NCBI RefSeq assembly: GCF_021310995.1
Contig: NZ_CP054151.1
Coordinates: 1,309,001-1,373,000 of the forward strand
Length of the DNA: 64,000 nt
From: Agrobacterium vaccinii
Lineage (GTDB): Bacteria > Pseudomonadota > Alphaproteobacteria > Rhizobiales > Rhizobiaceae
Direction of reading: 5' to 3'
Shown here: piece after piece, positions 50,777 through 61,499 of the stretch
Position numbering within the stretch: the first letter of the stretch is position 1
How the letters are laid out: the number at the start of each line of letters is the position of its first letter
Notes under the pieces: generated by a model
What the model was told of the DNA's origin: nothing
Databases searched by the model: none
What the model saw: only the letters and a program-made list of their open reading frames with translations
Made by a program: the position numbers and the translations under genes

Positions 50777-51769
50777 TCAGACGATCTGGACGACGACTTT
50801 TTCGCGTGCGGATTTCAGCGCCGCATCGGCGAGTTTCAGCGCGATCAAGCCGTCATGGGCCGATGGTGATGGCGCCACGTTGTTTTCGATGGCGTCGATG
50901 AAAGCCTTGATTTCTGCGGCATAGGCTTCCGTGTAGCGTGTCATGAAGAAATCATGCAGCGGCGGGCGCGTATAGCCGTCCTTGGTCGCGATTTCGATGG
51001 AAACCGGGCGCTGGTTTTCGGCAGCGACGGAGCCGAGCGATCCGTGCACTTCGATACGCTGATCGTAACCATAGGTCGCGCGGCGCGAGTTGGAAATGAT
51101 AGCCTGGCGTCCGCTGGCAGTGGTCAGAATGATGCTGGCGCTGTCGAAGTCGCCCAGTTCGCCGATCTTCGGATCGACCAGCACGGACCCTGTCGCGAAC
51201 ACACTGACAATGTCTTCTCCCAGCAGGAAGCGGGCGATGTCGAAATCATGGATGGTCATGTCGCGGAAAATGCCGCCGGAGACCTTGATGTATTCGGGTG
51301 GCGGTGCGCCGGGATCGCGGCTGGTGATCGTCACCATCTCGACCTTGCCGATCTGGCCATCATCGATGGCCTTGCGCACGGCGCGGAAATGCGGATCGAA
51401 ACGGCGGTTGAAACCGAGCATGATCTTCGCATCGGTTTCCTTGACCACCTCGATGCAGGCGGCAGCGCGGGCGACATCCAGATCGATAGGCTTCTCGCAG
51501 AAGATCGCCTTGCCAGCGCGCGCGAACTGCTCGATCAGATCGGCATGCGTATTGGTCGGTGTGCAGATGATGACGGCGTCGATCTCTGCATCTGCCAACA
51601 CGGCATCGATGGTGCTGATTTTGCAGCCGGTCTCATCAGCAATCGCCTGAGCTGCGTCCTGAAAGGCATCGACAACGGCAACCAGTTTGGCGCGTTTGTC
51701 GGCGGCAATCGCCTTGGCATGCACTTTTCCGATGCGACCCGCACCCAGCAAAGCCAATCTCGTAACCAT
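50777..51769 (-). CDS. idhA: Inositol 2-dehydrogenase (Gfo/Idh/MocA family)
   Basis: A 330-residue NAD-dependent oxidoreductase that oxidises myo-inositol to scyllo-inosose. The Rossmann motif is LALLGAGRIGKVHAKAI, followed by EKPIDL with the catalytic lysine, GGIFRDMTIHDFDIARFLLGE with catalytic aspartate/histidine, and SRRATYGYDQRIEVHG, which closely follows S. meliloti IdhA as I recall it. The start is ATG 51769 behind GGGAGGAA. The gene stands alone, without iolBCDE in the window, but carries a GGAA-N6-TTCC box upstream, consistent with IolR control. Confidence 0.92.
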   Translation of the reverse strand: MVTRLALLGAGRIGKVHAKAIAADKRAKLVAVVDAFQDAAQAIADETGCKISTIDAVLADAEIDAVIICTPTNTHADLIEQFARAGKAIFCEKPIDLDVARAAACIEVVKETDAKIMLGFNRRFDPHFRAVRKAIDDGQIGKVEMVTITSRDPGAPPPEYIKVSGGIFRDMTIHDFDIARFLLGEDIVSVFATGSVLVDPKIGELGDFDSASIILTTASGRQAIISNSRRATYGYDQRIEVHGSLGSVAAENQRPVSIEIATKDGYTRPPLHDFFMTRYTEAYAAEIKAFIDAIENNVAPSPSAHDGLIALKLADAALKSAREKVVVQIV

Positions 51770-51850
51770 CGTTTTCCTCCCGATGTGAATGCCGGGTTCC
51801 GTTATGACTGTCGTCTCGCCTGGAACGGCAACGTGCACAATAGACCCATT

Positions 51851-52003: not shown

Positions 52004-53341
52004 TCAGTTGTCAGGCATGCCGGGAATGCGATTGACCTCGATCATCTGCCGGATGGTGCGGTCCGCGACCCGTTCAGCACGGGCTTTGGACTGCTCCACA
52101 TCTTCGGGGAACGTATAGGTCATGTAGGATAGGGATGTTTCGAGGTCGTTGTTGTTGTGACCGAGGATGGCTGCAAAGTAGCTGTTTTTCGTCACGCTCG
52201 ATTGCGCAAAATTGCGATAGGCGATTTCCGCATAGAGATGGCGCAGGCCGTAGGGCTTCGGGGGTTCTTCCTTCGGCCAGATGTCCTCGAATTTGGCCAT
52301 AACGGCGTCGCGTAGCGGCAGGCGCACTTCGGCTGTGAAATCATCGACATTGAGGCCGAGCCATAGCTTGCCATCGCTGCTGTTGCGCAGGCGCCCATAG
52401 GCATCCAAAACGATTTTCGATTGTTCCAGCACCGGGATTTCATAGGTAACGCCAAATTTCGTGCCTTCGCCCTGCTTGGTTTTGGCCTGCCCATTGAACA
52501 GCACGCTCCATTTGGAAACGCCTTTGCCATAGGGCGCGGGTGTCAACTCAGCCTGGGTGAAGATTTCATAGGGACGACGCCCGGTGGTGCCCATCAGGCC
52601 TATGGCGATCGTCATAGGGTCCGAGGAGTGCAGATAGCGCCGACAGCGTCTCATGACTTCGGCATAGTTCTCGAAGGTAATGAGCGATCCGTGCTTGGTG
52701 GCGATCTTCGCCATTTTTATCTTGCGGGCTTCGTCGTAAAGCTGAGGCGTACCAGCGGCGATGCGCAACATCGGGTGGTCATCGCCGAAGGCTTCGCGAA
52801 CGGCATTGCGGTATTTGGTGATGTAGGAAATGACGGTCGCCTGCGCCTTGTCGCCCATGGACGCCATCTCGGCATCCCACAGAGTCTGCATCTCCTGTTT
52901 CGTCGTCAGCCCGTTGGTGGCCGCGATGAAGTCCGACACGCGCAGCAGAAACCGGGGTTTGCGGCCTGCCATGTTGCTTTCGGCACGCTCCAGCTTCTCC
53001 TGAATGGAATTGGCAACCCCACGCAGCGGGTATTCGACCGTTCGGATATAGGTGTCCAGCCGCTCCCGCAGTTTTTTCATGTTGCAGATGGCAAGCGGTG
53101 TCGTCTTTGGCCCGAAGGCATCCTTGAGCGCGTATCTATATTTTACGATGTAGAGTTCAAGCGTCTTTTCCGTGCGGCCATTGTCGAAATGGAAGCGTAC
53201 TTCTTCATTCCATAGGGCACTGATCTTCTTGGGATCGAACGTGCCATCCGGCTTGCGCGTGAGCTTCACCTTCTCGATGAAATCCGCGATACGCTCGACC
53301 AAAACCGGTGTTTTTGTTTTTCTTTTTTCGGCCACGGGCAT
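52004..53341 (-). CDS. telA: Protelomerase (telomere resolvase) TelA
   Basis: A 445-residue homologue of the Agrobacterium hairpin-telomere resolvase. The sequence follows the known C58 protein closely by memory: RKTKTPVLVERI at the start, HFDNGRTEKTLELYI, TPLAICNMKKLRERL and SYITKYRNA. Catalytic residues of this tyrosine-recombinase fold are present: R255 in TGRRPYE, the lysine-bearing GQAKTKQGEGTKFG, R367 in YGLRHLYAE, H395 in LGHNNND and nucleophile Y406 in ETSLSYMTYT. The enzyme cuts replicated telomere dimers and rejoins strands as hairpins. The ATG at 53341 follows GGAG. No telomere target was seen in the window. Confidence 0.96.
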   Translation of the reverse strand: MPVAEKRKTKTPVLVERIADFIEKVKLTRKPDGTFDPKKISALWNEEVRFHFDNGRTEKTLELYIVKYRYALKDAFGPKTTPLAICNMKKLRERLDTYIRTVEYPLRGVANSIQEKLERAESNMAGRKPRFLLRVSDFIAATNGLTTKQEMQTLWDAEMASMGDKAQATVISYITKYRNAVREAFGDDHPMLRIAAGTPQLYDEARKIKMAKIATKHGSLITFENYAEVMRRCRRYLHSSDPMTIAIGLMGTTGRRPYEIFTQAELTPAPYGKGVSKWSVLFNGQAKTKQGEGTKFGVTYEIPVLEQSKIVLDAYGRLRNSSDGKLWLGLNVDDFTAEVRLPLRDAVMAKFEDIWPKEEPPKPYGLRHLYAEIAYRNFAQSSVTKNSYFAAILGHNNNDLETSLSYMTYTFPEDVEQSKARAERVADRTIRQMIEVNRIPGMPDN

Positions 53342-53421: not shown

Positions 53422-54564
53422 TTACGCGAATGGGTCCGTAGGCGAGTTCGCGGGCTGCGTGAACCAGTGCGCGCCATCGTGGTCCATATAAATATGGTCT
53501 TCAAGGCGAATGCCGAAACGGCCGGGATAAACGAGCATGGGTTCGTTGGAAAAACACATGCCCTGCGCGAGCGGGGTGGTGTTTCCGCGCACGATATAGG
53601 GAGCCTCGTGAATTTCGAGCCCAAGCCCATGACCGGCGCGATGGGGCAGGCCCGGAAGCTGATAATCCGGGCCCAGACCGTGCCCGGCCATGACACGGCG
53701 GGCGGCGTCATCGAGTGCACTGCATGGCGTGCCGAGCTTGGCCGCATCGAAAACCGCCTGCTGCGCCTCGCGCTCGATGGCCCAGGCCTCTGCGAAATCC
53801 GGCGATGGTTCGTCGATCATGTATGTCCGCGTCAGATCGGAATGGTAGCCATCGATGCGCGTGCCGGTATCGACGAGGATCGCGTCTCCTGGCTGCAAAA
53901 TCTGGTCGCCATCCGCACCATGCGGCAGGGCAGTGGCAGTGCCGAAGGACACGATGCAGAAAGACGAGCCGCCTTCGCCGCCGAGTTCCAGATGCTGCTC
54001 ATCGATGAAACGCACGACCTCGGATGCGCGGATGCCATGCTTCATGATGCCATGCGCCCGCTTCTGTACGTCGAGCGTCAGGTTCATGGCATACTGGATG
54101 ATGGCGATTTCGGTCGTGGATTTGCAAGCCCGTAGGCTGCCAATCATCGGCCCGCCGTCACAAAGCCGGTCCTGACCCAGTTCTCTGGCAAGGCTGTGAT
54201 AGATGAAGAGCGGCAGCGCATCGTCAAGTGCGACGCGACCCGTGGCGCCAACGAGAGAGGCGACCAGTGCTGCCGGGCGCTCCTCTTCCTGCCAGATGTG
54301 AACCTCGCCATCGAGATGGGGCAAGGTATCGACACGGCTTTTTTCGAAACCGGGCACGACATAATGCAGTGCATCCTGCGTAACGACGGCGCCCAGCAGG
54401 CGTTCACTCTGATGCCAGACGAGACCGGTGAAATAGCGCAGGCTTTCCGACGAACCCAGAAGCAGAGCGCTAACACCTTGTTGCTCCATCAGGCGGCGCA
54501 GGCGATCCAGCCGCTGCTTGCGTTCCGCATCGCCAATCAGGTCCGGCTTCATTCCCAGGAGCAT
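53422..54564 (-). CDS. M24-family metallopeptidase (Xaa-Pro peptidase-like)
   Basis: A 380-residue creatinase/prolidase-type protein with an N-terminal creatinase-like domain and a pita-bread catalytic domain. The five metal ligands can be seen: D in ILVDTGTR, D in HSDLTRTY, H in PHRAGHGLGLEIHE, E in CFSNEPML and E in RLEDHIYM. It may cleave Xaa-Pro or related imide bonds. Subgroup assignment within M24 is not possible by eye. ATG 54564 is preferred with AGAGAAAGAA upstream, and the frame to 54624 and ATG 54552 are alternatives. It lies between acvB-lpiA and telA in the same orientation. Confidence 0.87.
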   Translation of the reverse strand: MLLGMKPDLIGDAERKQRLDRLRRLMEQQGVSALLLGSSESLRYFTGLVWHQSERLLGAVVTQDALHYVVPGFEKSRVDTLPHLDGEVHIWQEEERPAALVASLVGATGRVALDDALPLFIYHSLARELGQDRLCDGGPMIGSLRACKSTTEIAIIQYAMNLTLDVQKRAHGIMKHGIRASEVVRFIDEQHLELGGEGGSSFCIVSFGTATALPHGADGDQILQPGDAILVDTGTRIDGYHSDLTRTYMIDEPSPDFAEAWAIEREAQQAVFDAAKLGTPCSALDDAARRVMAGHGLGPDYQLPGLPHRAGHGLGLEIHEAPYIVRGNTTPLAQGMCFSNEPMLVYPGRFGIRLEDHIYMDHDGAHWFTQPANSPTDPFA

Positions 54565-54653
54565 CGTCGTTCTTTCTCTGTCATCGCACGGGGATGGAAT
54601 ACAGAAATGCTGCCTTGTATTCAATATGTCGACAGACGTTTGAGCGAAGAGTT

Positions 54654-56018
54654 TTAGGGTTGTAGCCGCTTCTTCAGAGAGGCCACGATCCGTTTCGTCA
54701 GCGCTTCGTAATCCTCATCGAAGTGGTGGCCGCCGTCGATGCCGATGATCTCGGCGCCCTTGTCCTTCAATGCCGGGCAGGCAGCGTCTTCATCATCTGT
54801 GCCGTAGACGCACTGCACGATTTTCGGATCGACCTTCTCCAGATCGGTGACGGGGTCCTGCGTGCCGGAGCCGGAGACGCCAAGCCAGCCGCCCACCGAA
54901 ATTTCGTAGGAGACCTCATGGGACAGCGACAGCAGGCTCATCTGCACGACGCGGCTTTTGTCCTTTTCCGGCAACAGGTTATAGGTTACGGGAATGACGT
55001 CGGCACCGAAGGAATAACCGATCAGCACAACGTTCTTGACCTTCCACTCCTTGCGGTAAGTGTCGATGATGCGGGACAGATCATCGGCGATGTCCTGAGG
55101 CTTTTTTTCGGACCAGAAGTAACGCAGCGAGTCCACGCCGATTGTCGGCACGCCGTCCTGTTGCAGGAAACTGCCGACATCCTTGTCCAGATCGCGCCAG
55201 CCACCATCGCCGGAGTAGATGATCGCCATCGTATCCATGGTTGGCTTTGCTTCCAGCACGGTCAGCGGCAGACCGAGCGGATTATCCGTATTGCCGGCGG
55301 CATCGATGCGATCCTGCAAGGCTTCGGCAAGCGCTGCCTGCGGCTCGTCGGTGACGTCCTTGATGTCGATGTCGGAATGGGATTTCAGCAGTTCTTCGAC
55401 ATGCGCGCGACCCTTGGCATCGGCCTTGGGCGTGAAGACGACGCTAACGGGCGCGGGTAGGGCGCCGTCGGTCAGGCCGTAAATCGTGCGGTTGCCGTCT
55501 TTCTGCTTGGTGGCGGGGGTGCAGAGGATCTTTTCAAGTGGAATACCTGCAACAGGATCGACGGCCACGGCCTCGCCGATGGTGGCAGCCGGGCTTTGCG
55601 CAATCATGGCCAGCGCCAACGTCGCGCCATCACCCATACCTGCGATAATCGGCGGGCGGTAGTTGGAGACATTGGCCTTGCGCTGAATTTCCTGCGCCAG
55701 TTCCTCGATGTCGGAGATCATATAGACGCAGTCATCATCGTCGGCCTGAAGAGCCGCCATATATTTTGGAAAATCGATTCCGACGACTGCCGCACCCTTT
55801 TCCACCAGCGCTTCGGCTTCGGTCTGCTCCTGCTCACCCCAGCCGCTCTGGCCGGAGATCAGGAAAATATTGGCTGCCACGTCGCCATCCGGCAGCATGA
55901 TGTGATCTGGCGGGATCATGCCTGTCTGAAAGCCGTTGGCGTCCTGTGCCGACACTGAAAACGGAATGGAAAGTGTCGCTGCTATCAAGGCGGCTTTCAG
56001 ATATGTCAGGCCTGTCAT
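54654..56018 (-). CDS. acvB: Lysyl-phosphatidylglycerol hydrolase / virulence protein AcvB
   Basis: A 454-residue periplasmic protein with a signal peptide (cleavage near VSAQ). It holds two related alpha/beta-hydrolase-like halves. The N-terminal half has GMGDGATLAL in place of the nucleophile elbow and so looks non-catalytic. The C-terminal VirJ-like half has the nucleophile S336 in LIGYSFGAD and a histidine in IDGGHHFDEDY. AcvB of A. tumefaciens is needed for virulence and hydrolyses lysyl-PG made by LpiA. Its start overlaps the lpiA stop as ATGA, so synthesis and removal of the lipid are translated together. Confidence 0.93.
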   Translation of the reverse strand: MTGLTYLKAALIAATLSIPFSVSAQDANGFQTGMIPPDHIMLPDGDVAANIFLISGQSGWGEQEQTEAEALVEKGAAVVGIDFPKYMAALQADDDDCVYMISDIEELAQEIQRKANVSNYRPPIIAGMGDGATLALAMIAQSPAATIGEAVAVDPVAGIPLEKILCTPATKQKDGNRTIYGLTDGALPAPVSVVFTPKADAKGRAHVEELLKSHSDIDIKDVTDEPQAALAEALQDRIDAAGNTDNPLGLPLTVLEAKPTMDTMAIIYSGDGGWRDLDKDVGSFLQQDGVPTIGVDSLRYFWSEKKPQDIADDLSRIIDTYRKEWKVKNVVLIGYSFGADVIPVTYNLLPEKDKSRVVQMSLLSLSHEVSYEISVGGWLGVSGSGTQDPVTDLEKVDPKIVQCVYGTDDEDAACPALKDKGAEIIGIDGGHHFDEDYEALTKRIVASLKKRLQP

Positions 56019-58615
56019 TTACCAATCACTCCTCTGACGCCGCCGCTGATGAGAACGGTTGCGTCCATAAGCGCCAATGCGGCGCTGGTACCGTTGGAAA
56101 CCGCGACATAGCGTGGTTCCCATTTCGGGTGAAACTTAGACTTGAACGCTCTTAATCCCTTGAAATTATAAAAACGTTCGCCGTGTTCAAACAAAGTTCC
56201 GCCTATCCGGTCCCAGACCGGCGCAGCGTCACGCTTCGACATGCCGGAAAGCGGGGCCATCCCAAGGTTGAAATAGGAGTAACCCTGTTCGCGCATATAT
56301 TCAATAATGCTGACGAACAGAAAGTCCATCGCCCCACGCGGTGCATCGGGTGAAAAGCGCATGAGATCGACTGTGACTTCCTGCTTGGTCTCCGTCATCA
56401 AAAGGTTGGCGAAAGCCGTGATCTGACCGTCTTTGTAGAGGACGGCAACCGGCTGAGACAGGATGTAGTCCTTCTCGAAAGACCCCAGGGAGAACGTCTT
56501 TTCGCGGGTATTGTGGTGCGCAAGCCAGGATTCCGAGACGCGCTTGAGGTCCTCGTAGACTTCTGGAACCTGCGGCGTGTCGATGACCGAGAAGGTCAGG
56601 CCATCGCGGGCACCACGGCTGAGCGACTGTCGCAGATTGGCGAGCTTGCCGCCCTTCAGTTCGAACTTGGTAAGGTCAACCATGGCCAGTTCGCCAAGCT
56701 TGAAAGCGCGCAGACCGGCATCGGCGCAATAGGTCAGGATGGCAGGTGAAATCTGGTAGAAGACCGCGCGACCACCGGAAGAGCGTGCCGTTTCCACGAA
56801 CTGCCAGACGAGATCGGCAAAATCCTTTTCGTCGCCAACAGGATCGGCAAGAGCAATCCAAGAGCGGCCACGAATGCCGTACATGATAAAGGCGTTGCCG
56901 CTTTCCGACAGCATGACGTGCTTGTCACCCATGCGGACGAGATTGGCGTCGGCGACATCCTGCTTCTGGACGATAGCAGTGGCTTTTTCGACATCATCAG
57001 GGTGAATTTCGTCCGGTTTGTAGATGACCGGGCGTAGCAGGCTGAAAATCGCAACCGTGGACGAGGCGAGAACCAGCCCCAGAAGCGCGCGCAGGCTTCG
57101 CGGTGCTTCCTCGGAAAACTCGAACTGCCACCACAGCGTCTGGCTGTAATCCGTATCGCGGTAGACGAAGAACAGAATGGTGGCGGCACCGGCAACGATG
57201 ACGGCCATGGCGGCAAGCCATGTGGGCCCGAGCGCCTGGCGCAGCAGCGAGGCGTGGCGTGTGAAGCTTCTGATATTGAAGAACAGCGCAACGATGAAAA
57301 TGCCGAGGAAAATCGCCTCGAAAACCGCGATGGCCTTGATCAGCGACAGGAACAGACCACCGGCAGCCGCCACCAGTGCTACCCACCATGCGCCATCGAG
57401 ACGCTGGCTGAGGCCGCGTGAGGCAACAACCAGCACGAGACCGAGGATACTCGACAGAAAGTGCGCGGCCTCGATGATCGGCAGAGGTACGAAGCCGGAC
57501 AGGAAGTCCAGGTTGCTATCTGGTGTTGGCGTCACGCTCGAAAAAATAAGCATGGTGCCGAGAATGAGGGCGTAGGCAGACAGCAGAGAGGGCGCAAGCC
57601 GCCCGGCCAGATTGCCGATATCGGCCATGACAGGCTTGGAGGCGAACTGTTTCATCTCCGTTGCCAGCATCAGCATGATGGCGACGAGAAGCGGCAGGAC
57701 GTGGTAGATCATGCGATACAGCACGAGGCCGCCAAGAAGCTGATCAAGGCTGATGGCATTGCCAAGGCCCGCGACCATCACCGTTTCGAACACGCCGAGA
57801 CCCGCCGGGACGTGGCTGAGAACACCAAGACCCACCGCCGTCGCATAGATCGCGAAAAAGCTTGGCCAACCGACATTCGTCTCTGGCAGCAGCACGTAAA
57901 GCACCGAGGCCGACGCCGCGATATCGAGAGCGGAAACCAGGAACTGGCGGGATGACGTTCTGCTATCGGGAAGGCGAAGTTTCAGACGCTTGATTTGAAG
58001 CACGCGGCCATTGCGGCCCAGAAACATCAGTGCCGCCATGATGCAGATGACGACAAGTGCGGCACCCCGCAACCAGATGGCATCAACGCCGATGATGGCG
58101 GCTACGCGCGGCGCAACGATAAGGGTTGAAAGGGCGCTAACGGCCAGCAAGCCGAGACCGAAGGACAGGGTGACGAAAGCGATGATGCGCGCAATATCCG
58201 AAGGCGTCAGCCCCATGCGCGAATAGGCACGGAAGCGGATGGCACCGCCGCTGAGCGGCCCGAAGCCCGCCGTGTTGCCCACGGCATAGGCGATGAAGGC
58301 GGTGGCAATGACCGACGGTGTCGGGACCTTCTTGCCAATATATTCGATGGCGTTGGCGTCGTAACAGATTAGCGCTGCGAAGCTCAGTCCCGTGAACAGG
58401 ATGGCAAGTGCGACCGCGCGCCAACTGGTATCAGCCAGGGCATCGACGATGTCGTCATAGCGCACTTCCGATGTCAGCTTGTAGATGGTGAAGGTCATCA
58501 TCACGAAGACGATCGTCACCGCGATGGATGTGATATGCGGCCTGTACCGCTCAAAAAAGCCTTCAAGACCGGCTTCGGCCTCTTCGATCTGCGCTACGTC
58601 TGTCTTCTCTGTCAT
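56015..58615 (-). CDS. lpiA: Bifunctional lysylphosphatidylglycerol flippase/synthetase (MprF/LpiA)
   Basis: An 866-residue inner membrane enzyme. The N-terminal two-thirds hold about fourteen hydrophobic helices (flippase domain, with GNTAGFGPLSGGAIRFRAYSRMGL and HVPAGLGVFETVMV). The C-terminal cytoplasmic domain (about 545-850) is the GNAT-like DUF2156 synthetase that uses Lys-tRNA and phosphatidylglycerol (GNAFIMYGIRGRSWIALADPVG, LGMAPLSGMSKRD, KFHPKWEPRYVAV). It reduces negative membrane charge, as in acid-tolerant rhizobia. The ATG at 58615 has GTGGAAA ahead of it, and a GTG at 58654 is possible. First gene of the lpiA-acvB operon. Confidence 0.95.
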   Translation of the reverse strand: MTEKTDVAQIEEAEAGLEGFFERYRPHITSIAVTIVFVMMTFTIYKLTSEVRYDDIVDALADTSWRAVALAILFTGLSFAALICYDANAIEYIGKKVPTPSVIATAFIAYAVGNTAGFGPLSGGAIRFRAYSRMGLTPSDIARIIAFVTLSFGLGLLAVSALSTLIVAPRVAAIIGVDAIWLRGAALVVICIMAALMFLGRNGRVLQIKRLKLRLPDSRTSSRQFLVSALDIAASASVLYVLLPETNVGWPSFFAIYATAVGLGVLSHVPAGLGVFETVMVAGLGNAISLDQLLGGLVLYRMIYHVLPLLVAIMLMLATEMKQFASKPVMADIGNLAGRLAPSLLSAYALILGTMLIFSSVTPTPDSNLDFLSGFVPLPIIEAAHFLSSILGLVLVVASRGLSQRLDGAWWVALVAAAGGLFLSLIKAIAVFEAIFLGIFIVALFFNIRSFTRHASLLRQALGPTWLAAMAVIVAGAATILFFVYRDTDYSQTLWWQFEFSEEAPRSLRALLGLVLASSTVAIFSLLRPVIYKPDEIHPDDVEKATAIVQKQDVADANLVRMGDKHVMLSESGNAFIMYGIRGRSWIALADPVGDEKDFADLVWQFVETARSSGGRAVFYQISPAILTYCADAGLRAFKLGELAMVDLTKFELKGGKLANLRQSLSRGARDGLTFSVIDTPQVPEVYEDLKRVSESWLAHHNTREKTFSLGSFEKDYILSQPVAVLYKDGQITAFANLLMTETKQEVTVDLMRFSPDAPRGAMDFLFVSIIEYMREQGYSYFNLGMAPLSGMSKRDAAPVWDRIGGTLFEHGERFYNFKGLRAFKSKFHPKWEPRYVAVSNGTSAALALMDATVLISGGVRGVIGK

Positions 58616-58792
58616 AGGCTTTTCCACAGGATCAGATTGCTTTTTGCGAACCACAACATTTTGACGCTAGTTCGTTGTGTTTTCACAAATACGAAGATTT
58701 GATTTTTATTTCATAAATTCGTTGAATGATCGGCGCGGCGACCCAGCAACCGGTCTTGTTGCGTCGGTTTGATCCTGCATGGACATGAAAGC

Positions 58793-58831: not shown

Positions 58832-59869
58832 TCATGCGCCCCAGGTCGCTTCGAGCACCCGGACCCAGTTGCCGTGGCAAATCTTTTCCAGCGAGGCCTG
58901 CTCGTAACCGGCATTTCGCAGGGCATCCACGAGAAGCTGGAGATCGGCGACATCTCTCATTGCAGCGGGAATGGTGGTGCCATCGAAATCCGAACCGAAT
59001 GCGACGTGGTCGATACCCATGCGCTCCACCATGTAATCGACGTGCCGCACCAGTTCGCCAAGGTCCGTATCGGCATTCTTCACACCATCCTGGCGCATGA
59101 ACAGCACGCCGAAATTAACACCGGCGAGCCCGCCCGTGTCCTTGATGGCATCCAACTGCCGGTCGGTGAGATTGCGGCTGTGATTGCACAGCGCGTGCGC
59201 GTTGGAATGGGACGCGACGAGAGGGGCATCGGAGATTTTGGCGATATCCCAGAAGCCCTGCTCGTTCATGTGGGAAAGATCGACCAGAACCTTCAACGCG
59301 TTGCAGGTCTTCACCAGTCGCACGCCCGCTTCGGTGAGGCCGGGGCCGATATCCGGCGTTGAAGGGAAGCGGAAGGGAACGCCGTGCGCGAATATATTGG
59401 GGCGGCTCCACACCGGGCCCAGCGTGCGCAAACCCGCCTGATGCAAAACGTGCAGCGCATCCAGGTCGGCATCGAAGGCTTCGACACCTTCGATGTGCAG
59501 AACCGAGGCGAACGCGCCACGATCCATCGCGCCGCGAATATCTGAAGCACTGCGGCAGACCTTGACCGCGCCGTTCGAGGCGGCTTCGATTCGAAACAAC
59601 AGGCTGGCCATGCCGAGTGTGGTCGCAAGCGCATCCGGCTGCGCAGGCGCGATGAAATCGCCATTGGCATCGAAACCGCGCGGGGAGGGGACGTAGATCG
59701 CGCAGAGACCACCGGCTAGACCACCCTTCCGCGCCCGCGGCAAATCGATATGCCCCGCCGCGTCGCCGTTCAGAAACTGTTCTTCCGGTACCGGATAATC
59801 GGACAGTTTAAGCCGCAGCAGGGTATCGTTATGGCCATCGAAGACGGGTACGGCGGTGGAGCTGGTCAT
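58832..59869 (-). CDS. M19-family membrane dipeptidase
   Basis: A 345-residue zinc-dependent renal-dipeptidase-type enzyme. The first zinc ligands are in VFDGHNDTL (H-x-D), then SVLHIEGVEAF with the bridging glutamate, LVDLSHMNEQGFWD and LVASHSNAHAL with the next two histidines, and FGSDFDGT for the final aspartate. Members hydrolyse L-Xaa-D-Xaa or dehydro-dipeptides and cope with D-residues at the C-terminus. ATG 59869 gives the right start for the conserved N-terminus, and the frame extending to 60001 overlaps the divergent gene. The neighbours with D-amino acid chemistry suggest D-peptide use. Confidence 0.9.
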   Translation of the reverse strand: MTSSTAVPVFDGHNDTLLRLKLSDYPVPEEQFLNGDAAGHIDLPRARKGGLAGGLCAIYVPSPRGFDANGDFIAPAQPDALATTLGMASLLFRIEAASNGAVKVCRSASDIRGAMDRGAFASVLHIEGVEAFDADLDALHVLHQAGLRTLGPVWSRPNIFAHGVPFRFPSTPDIGPGLTEAGVRLVKTCNALKVLVDLSHMNEQGFWDIAKISDAPLVASHSNAHALCNHSRNLTDRQLDAIKDTGGLAGVNFGVLFMRQDGVKNADTDLGELVRHVDYMVERMGIDHVAFGSDFDGTTIPAAMRDVADLQLLVDALRNAGYEQASLEKICHGNWVRVLEATWGA

Positions 59870-59987
59870 GAGGCGTTCGCTTTCGGAAAGTGTATCACTG
59901 GCATTGCTGTATGCGTCAGATAGGTGCAAATGCAATGCCGCAACAGGTCTGAACCCGCAAAGCGGGAAGCATTTGAACGGAAAATAC

Positions 59988-61499
59988 ATGCTGGATGACA
60001 ATGACTGGAGCGCCGCATCGGCGGTTGCGGAGCAATTTGCAGGTCAGTGGAAAAACGACGAGCCGGGCGGTGCTATCATCGGTTTCGACATCAGCGGCAT
60101 CCGGTTTTCAAAGGCTGGTGGCGTTGAGAGCATGGCGACGAAGGCTCCTTTCACCGCCCGCAGCATCGTGCGCTACGCCTCGGTGACCAAGCATGTGTTT
60201 TCTGCCATGGTGCTTGCAAACAGCGATCTCATCGCGCTTGACGATCCCCTCGGGAAACATCTGTCAGAGCTGCAATCCCCGCTTGCCGATGTGACGGTTG
60301 GGCAGGCTTTGGACATGAGCGGTGGCCTGCCGGATGTCCGCGAATGTCTCTCTCTCCTTGGGCTCTCGGTCTACACGGAGACGAAGGCAGGGCCGCTGCT
60401 GGACTATCTCTCACGCCTCACCCGCCTCAATTTTGAGACCGGGCATGAGGTGTCCTATTCCAACACCGGATATCGTCTGGTCGAGGCTGCGCTGGAGCGC
60501 AAAGGGCGACGGTTCGATGATTTCGTGCAGGAGAACATCGCAGGCCCGCTCGGCATTTTTCTCAAGGCGCCGGATGTCTGGAACGATCCGGTCGATGGTC
60601 TTGTGCCGGGTTATTGGCGAAATGACCGTGGCTGGCAACTTTCGGCGGCGGGCCTGCATCTCTCGGCATCCGGCAGTCTGGCTGGCAGCGCGGAAGCGCT
60701 GGTGCGCTGGCTTCAGACGCTGCTGAACGGTGAGCAGGGCTTTGCCGGTACGTTGCAGGCGCTTTCGGTGGAACGTACCCTCGCCAACGGAGCACTGAGC
60801 GAATACGGGCTTGGCGTGCGCTGGTCGCATCTGGGCGAGCGGCGTTTTGTGGGGCATGGCGGCTCACACCCCGGGTACAAGACATATTTCCTGCTGGACC
60901 CGGACCACAGGAAAGGCGTCGTTGTCGTCTCCAACCGTGAGGACACCAACGGTTTCAAGATCGCTCTGGAGACCATGGCGGCACTGACCGGACTGCCGTT
61001 ACCGCGACCGATGACGGGGTTGCCCGAAGGCCTCTATGTCACGGAAACGGGGCTGTGGTGGCTGGAGATCAAGGGCAGCACCTGCACCTTCATCGATGCC
61101 GACGATACGCTCTATGACGATGGTGACGGCTGGGCGTCGTCGCGGTCCGCCTCGTCTCCCATGCGGCTGCGGCTGGATGGAAAGGCATTGGTCGGTGAAG
61201 CCGGGCATGCACCTCGCCGATTTCTCCCGGTCGGCAAACACGAGGTCGATCCCGCTCTTGCAGGGCGTTGGCGCTCGCCGGAAGGGTCGGAATTCGAGAT
61301 TGCCGATGGCGCTTTCACGACGGGAATTGGCCCGCTTCGTACCACCACGCCGCTGAAGGCACTCGGCAACGGACGCTATCTTTTTACCCTCGTGGACGGC
61401 CCCTGGACCAAAAGAGTGTGCCTGCACATGTTGGACAAAGACCGTATCGAACTGGTGTCCAGCCGCGCGCGGATGATCGAATACCGACGCTCGACCTGA
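59988..61499 (+). CDS. D-aminopeptidase-like serine hydrolase (beta-lactamase fold)
   Basis: A 503-residue protein of the penicillin-binding/esterase (S12) family. The nucleophile is S65 in ASVTK, the second catalytic motif is YSN in EVSYSNTGY, and the third is GHGGSHPG. From about residue 340 on there are two further beta-barrel-like domains, the architecture of the Ochrobactrum D-aminopeptidase DAP, which removes N-terminal D-amino acids from peptides. The total length is close to that enzyme's 520 residues. No signal peptide is present, so it acts in the cytoplasm. ATG 59988 has GGAAA upstream. Divergent from the dipeptidase gene with 118 bases between. Confidence 0.85.
   Translation: MLDDNDWSAASAVAEQFAGQWKNDEPGGAIIGFDISGIRFSKAGGVESMATKAPFTARSIVRYASVTKHVFSAMVLANSDLIALDDPLGKHLSELQSPLADVTVGQALDMSGGLPDVRECLSLLGLSVYTETKAGPLLDYLSRLTRLNFETGHEVSYSNTGYRLVEAALERKGRRFDDFVQENIAGPLGIFLKAPDVWNDPVDGLVPGYWRNDRGWQLSAAGLHLSASGSLAGSAEALVRWLQTLLNGEQGFAGTLQALSVERTLANGALSEYGLGVRWSHLGERRFVGHGGSHPGYKTYFLLDPDHRKGVVVVSNREDTNGFKIALETMAALTGLPLPRPMTGLPEGLYVTETGLWWLEIKGSTCTFIDADDTLYDDGDGWASSRSASSPMRLRLDGKALVGEAGHAPRRFLPVGKHEVDPALAGRWRSPEGSEFEIADGAFTTGIGPLRTTTPLKALGNGRYLFTLVDGPWTKRVCLHMLDKDRIELVSSRARMIEYRRST

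Follow-up and report, generated by a model that had tools for sequence, protein, structure and literature searches.

A telA telomere resolvase gene on a probably linear chromid of Agrobacterium vaccinii

Hairpin telomere resolvases act on linear replicons, and the finding of a telA-type gene in Agrobacterium vaccinii raises the question of whether the cell owns such a replicon and, if so, whether the enzyme serves the replicon on which it is encoded. The genome (G000) consists of three contigs, C1 (3.14 Mb), C2 (1.56 Mb) and C3 (0.18 Mb). The window, by which we mean the whole 64,000-nucleotide stretch that was analyzed (C2:1309001-1373000), includes telA and lies on C2. The features discussed below are listed in Table 1.

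Table 1. Position of telA and of neighboring genes in the window.
Feature	Position	Strand	Basis or remark
telA, telomere resolvase (protelomerase), 445 aa	52004..53341	-	ORF, homology, residues; ATG at 53341, stop codon within coordinates, ending at 52004
M24 peptidase gene (PF00557, PF01321), between telA and acvB	53422..54624	-	start uncertain: TTG 54624 or ATG 54564
acvB-like gene (PF06057 VirJ), neighbor of telA	54654..56018	-	Pfam and locus comparison
lpiA/mprF-like lysyl-phosphatidylglycerol synthase gene (PF09924, PF03706)	56015..58654	-	start uncertain: GTG 58654 or ATG 58615
M19 dipeptidase gene (PF01244), in block common to C58-like circular chromosome	58832..59989	-	Pfam and locus comparison
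GFO/IDH/MocA oxidoreductase gene, opposite side of telA, outside conserved block	50777..51838	-	Pfam and locus comparison

A sequence-only reading of this DNA had placed a protelomerase gene here without naming a strand. The open reading frame is confirmed and is on the minus strand (G000:C2:1361007-1362341 without the stop codon); the plus strand of the same interval contains 4 stops in frame 1. The reading had also held that the product follows Agrobacterium TelA throughout and resembles it too closely for a generic integrase, and our searches agree on both counts. The best PDB match by phmmer was Agrobacterium TelA (4dwp, E 6.6e-207) over residues 3-436 of 445, a span that takes in the N-terminal and muzzle regions and not the catalytic domain alone. 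All 5 distinct PDB sequences matched at E <= 0.001 are named Protelomerase, and the single Pfam-A family detected was PF16684 (ResT-TelK_cat, 122 bits against a cut-off of 27). At E <= 0.001 the genome has one copy of telA. The active-site residues reported for C58 TelA (R255, K286, Y363, R366, H394 and Y405; PMC3558466) are all present, as R256, K287, Y364, R367, H395 and Y406, as are those for hairpin refolding or contact (Y201, R205, K208 and K288 in the same account; here Y202, R206, K209 and K289). Thus R367, H395 and Y406 had been numbered correctly in the reading, but its R255 is the C58 position and corresponds to R256 here, residue 255 being an arginine as well. Loss of the catalytic tyrosine and arginines had been named as grounds for rejecting the assignment, and every catalytic residue is retained. 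The ten functional residues were invariant in all 26 aligned TelA sequences (our own and those of 25 named loci). Against nine relatives, the dN/dS of telA was 0.03-0.18 at a dS of 1.3-1.8, which is therefore near saturation (9 of 10 comparisons gave values; L063, with an ambiguous codon, was left out). The gene is under purifying selection and, from its sequence, is predicted to be an intact TelA-type telomere resolvase.

We turn to the replicons. C2 harbors a repC gene (RepC family PF03428 at C2:909180-909698, 230 bits against a cut-off of 24.4). Read by eye, the first open reading frame of C1 is dnaA and that of C3 is repA; C3 also has repC and is similar to an Agrobacterium vaccinii plasmid (92.7% identity over 41% of a 15-kb query). 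C1 and C3 thus begin at replication genes, the usual cut point of circles, whereas C2 does not. No exact end overlap was found on C1, C2 or C3 and, because the ends of C1 and C3 show none either, its lack on C2 says little when taken alone.

The left end of C2 is more informative. C2 begins CGATACTATTATTGTAATTGCAAG, and both ends of the 2,075,577-base replicon of the C58-like genome G007, which we take to be C58, begin TGATATTGTTATT. The 16-mer YGATAYTRTTATTRTA, a TelA half-site that was composed after the C2 end had been seen, had a single perfect match in the genome, at C2:1; at up to two mismatches it had 11 matches, compared to 5 for a backward control. Over query positions 2-1277 (about 1.3 kb) the left end of C2 is 93% identical to the end of contig C3 of G031, which carries AACAATATCA and TGATATTGTTATTGTAATTGCAAG on the two sides of a canonical TCA-TGA apex. 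At the level of sequence, this end provides independent support for a putative left telomere on C2. Base 1 of C2 is C and base 8 is A, as opposed to T and G in the other telomeres seen; most of the comparison telomeres were found by the pattern TCATGA, which biases the comparison, but for G007, G008, G010, G019, G031 and G033 the sequence was taken directly from contig ends. The difference at base 1 (L003) may reflect a variant TCG-CGA apex or an end-of-contig error. The strict full palindrome, allowing 3 mismatches at most, was recovered from 3 of the 7 genomes scanned, but not from ours or from G007; several contigs end at the apex or short of it. The right terminus of C2 is absent from the assembly, the contig stopping short. 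Its last ~690 bases match contig ends in G019, G009, G021 and G022. In G019 and G009 a palindrome then follows, with its apex 102 and 103 bp beyond the last base of C2; the contigs of G021 and G022 run at most 54 bases past that base and stop before any apex.

Comparison across the genus places these ends in context. Although the reading had described such resolvases as rare in bacteria, rarity does not hold within this genus, where telA was found in 38 of 39 genomes. The 16-mer TCATGATAYTRTTAYT had exact matches in 14 of the 39, at 24 distinct sites by hand count, and 21 of these sites lay no more than 140 bp from a contig end. The other three were 513 bp from an end in G012, at the exact middle of G014 contig C26, and at G010:C2:783066, which is internal and has no palindrome. 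In 13 of the 39 genomes there was no match to TCATGATAYTRTTAYT, namely ours, the telA-less G025 and eleven others with telA; because of these eleven, absence of the site does not track absence of the gene. Allowing one mismatch recovered an internal, single-orientation sequence, TCATGATATGGTTATT, in 12 genomes, so one-mismatch matches are not telomeres as such. At 23 of 25 apex centers examined, the arms were perfectly complementary up to the sequence limit (for 39-150 bases in 11 of them); the imperfect centers were in G012 (72/126) and the second of two in G017 C20 (39/123). The contigs of relatives continue beyond the apex as perfect palindromes, and reading round a hairpin end is expected to yield palindromes that greatly exceed the binding site in length.

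Several individual contigs deserve mention. In G014:C26 (26,098 bases; L175) the apex sits at the exact contig middle and 150 of 150 fetched arm bases are complementary, as if the contig ran round a hairpin. The start of G017 contig C20 (L183, G017:C20:1-300) has two full telomere centers 84 bp apart, which represent either a telomere in tandem or an artefact of assembly. The apex of a telomere-like site at G001:C1:32-57, TCTTGA/TCAAGA, is not self-complementary; the site may represent a single strand of a hairpin whose loop is mismatched. The small contigs C6 and C7 of G013 hold several distant TelA pieces (29-47% identity, some in broken frames) that are possibly linear-plasmid resolvases. 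The family also extends beyond Rhizobiaceae: protelomerase-family proteins (~30% identical) are named from Acetobacter okinawensis and A. malorum (P0048 and P0053). Finally, G025 is the sole genome of the 39 without telA, and no telomere site was found in it; its second replicon may be circular. The M24 peptidase gene is present there (72%), and acvB, lpiA and the oxidoreductase gene were not found within the 60 kb fetched, so G025 offers no clean empty site.

Collectively, these data make it very probable that an intact TelA is encoded by a linear chromid in an Agrobacterium that belongs to the rubi/larrymoorei side of its genus. The expectation that the cell owns a linear replicon is borne out by the repC gene of C2, its left half-site and its right-end homology, all at the sequence level. 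In line with the reading, the half-site scan found no telomere target in the window; the half-site lies elsewhere on this replicon, at C2:1. The whole-genome search that it had proposed for a palindromic replicon end recovered this half-site but, at up to 3 mismatches, not the full palindrome. Of the two places suggested for the target, the one outside the window proves correct and a different replicon is unlikely, because the left end of the replicon carrying telA is itself a TelA half-site. The point left open by the reading thus appears to be answered within one genome, which has a linear replicon with a target site at its end.

We weighed three other explanations. The enzyme might serve some other linear replicon, for instance a small linear plasmid that the assembly lacks, with C2 being circular. 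Linear plasmids with hairpin ends do occur in Rhizobiaceae (PMC13293297), and C2 has no complete telomere in the present assembly; however, C2 begins exactly with the TelA half-site, relatives carry a full telomere at that place, and linear plasmids are described as bringing their own resolvase gene (PMC13293297) while this genome has one telA. We consider this explanation very unlikely, and an enzyme serving only another replicon was rejected on the basis of the single telA on C2 and the half-site at C2:1. Slightly less probable still is a decayed or retasked TelA-type tyrosine recombinase that has lost telomere resolution, for which no evidence was found and against which stand the open frame, the ten retained residues and a dN/dS far below 1. 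We give the least credence, close to none, to a generic phage or plasmid integrase that is TelA-like in its catalytic domain only. Tyrosine-recombinase chemistry is common to both kinds of enzyme, but the near-whole-length match to TelA and the lack of an integrase family argue otherwise, and none of the ten neighbors of telA scanned was integrase-like. The PDB and Pfam matches rule this candidate out.

Given the half-site at C2:1, the canonical apex in G031 and the right-end homologs with an apex, the most likely client of TelA is the replicon on which its gene lies. By analogy with the published TelA mechanism (PMC3558466, PMC11271964), we infer that it acts there by cleavage, refolding and covalent closure. 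Replication of the chromid from an internal origin would yield two copies connected by palindromic replicated telomeres. A dimer of TelA would then cut both strands 6 bp apart via Tyr406, refold each strand into a hairpin (Tyr202, Arg206, Lys209) and reseal the strands, releasing two closed linear chromids.

The surroundings of telA are conserved. The acvB gene adjoins telA in 24 of the 25 named loci, and the M24 peptidase gene lies between the two in 12 of the 25 and in 0 of the remaining 13; in all 12 loci with the peptidase gene, TelA is 81% or more identical to ours. The telA gene travels with lpiA-acvB. L078 (Rhizobium sp. RM) is the sole case among the 25 in which telA lacks acvB, lpiA and the other block genes within the locus.

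We surveyed the location of telA in fourteen genomes with at most 9 contigs, ours included. All fourteen have repC on the large chromid contig. The telA gene is on the chromid contig in G000, G008, G010 and G036 and on C1, at 2.1-2.7 Mb, in the other ten; in most complete relatives the telA-lpiA-acvB block is on the circular chromosome. In G036 (a single C58-related assembly; loci L157-L162 cover G036:C2:1214001-1334000), a 43.6-kb segment with telA inside (C2:1259647-1303222) aligns collinearly, as seven pieces at 85-90%, to the circular chromosome of C58. On the left, homology to the linear replicon of C58 ends no more than 129 bp from the segment; on the right, it starts again 53 bp beyond the segment (linear-replicon positions 977,951 and 894,405, respectively). 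In C58, about 83 kb of different sequence occupies this place. Because the block is collinear with the chromosome and its flanks with the linear replicon, a chromosomal block with telA appears to sit in the G036 chromid, and the located genomes therefore need two replicon changes. In a TelA tree of 35 rows (three of them long-branch outgroup rows, with L078 as Rhizobium sp. RM; of the 38 telA genomes, G001, G012, G023, G026, G028 and G034 were left out and G027 enters as L076), G036 groups with G017 and the C58-like G007 with support of 100/99, its nesting with G007 being a starred branch. On this tree the locations imply two changes, and the starred branches force two. Label shuffles reached the observed two changes in 37 of 500 (chromid) and 32 of 500 (chromosome) trials, so clustering of the location label is weak evidence. 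We judge the chances to be about even that telA, with lpiA-acvB, has switched between chromosome and chromid at least twice (between the rubi/larrymoorei and biovar-1 sides, and in G036, there clearly into the chromid) and that the left telomere may use the variant TCG-CGA apex. Should the chromosome be the ancestral place, the resolvase has been captured twice by the replicon it serves. Some lineages keep telA on its client replicon and others keep it on the main chromosome, and one move is sharp and datable; it thereby becomes testable whether linkage of resolvase and replicon alters chromid stability.

Much of this arrangement is known. According to PMC13293297, most Agrobacterium carry a linear chromid; it is the site of telA in the rubi sub-clade and A. 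larrymoorei, and biovar 1 strains such as C58 and H13-3 have the gene on the circular chromosome. The present case fits this distribution. Our additions are the co-travel of telA with lpiA-acvB and the 43.6-kb chromosomal block inside the G036 chromid. A literature search found no paper naming both telA and acvB and, among the titles listed, none on such a move of telA. Compared to A. tumefaciens C58 TelA (4dwp), our protein is about 70% identical over the alignable residues 3-436 and keeps the ten residues, and acvB-lpiA adjoin telA in both; the loci differ in that telA of the C58-like G007 is on a 2.84-Mb circular chromosome whereas ours is on the chromid, and in that ours has the M24 peptidase gene between telA and acvB. 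Linear-plasmid (pLin) protelomerases of Rhizobiaceae share the enzyme class and closed hairpin ends, but PMC13293297 sets them apart from the chromid type, with 67.3% identity in strain rho-13.3; their plasmids are ~80 kb long and have terminal repeats without homology to those of chromids. The telA genes of the rubi sub-clade and A. larrymoorei are likewise on a linear chromid (PMC13293297), and no difference of kind was found. Our TelA shares 90-92% identity with that of the rubi-type records A. rosae, A. rubi and R. skierniewicense, and the two deviating bases of our left telomere may result from an error of assembly.
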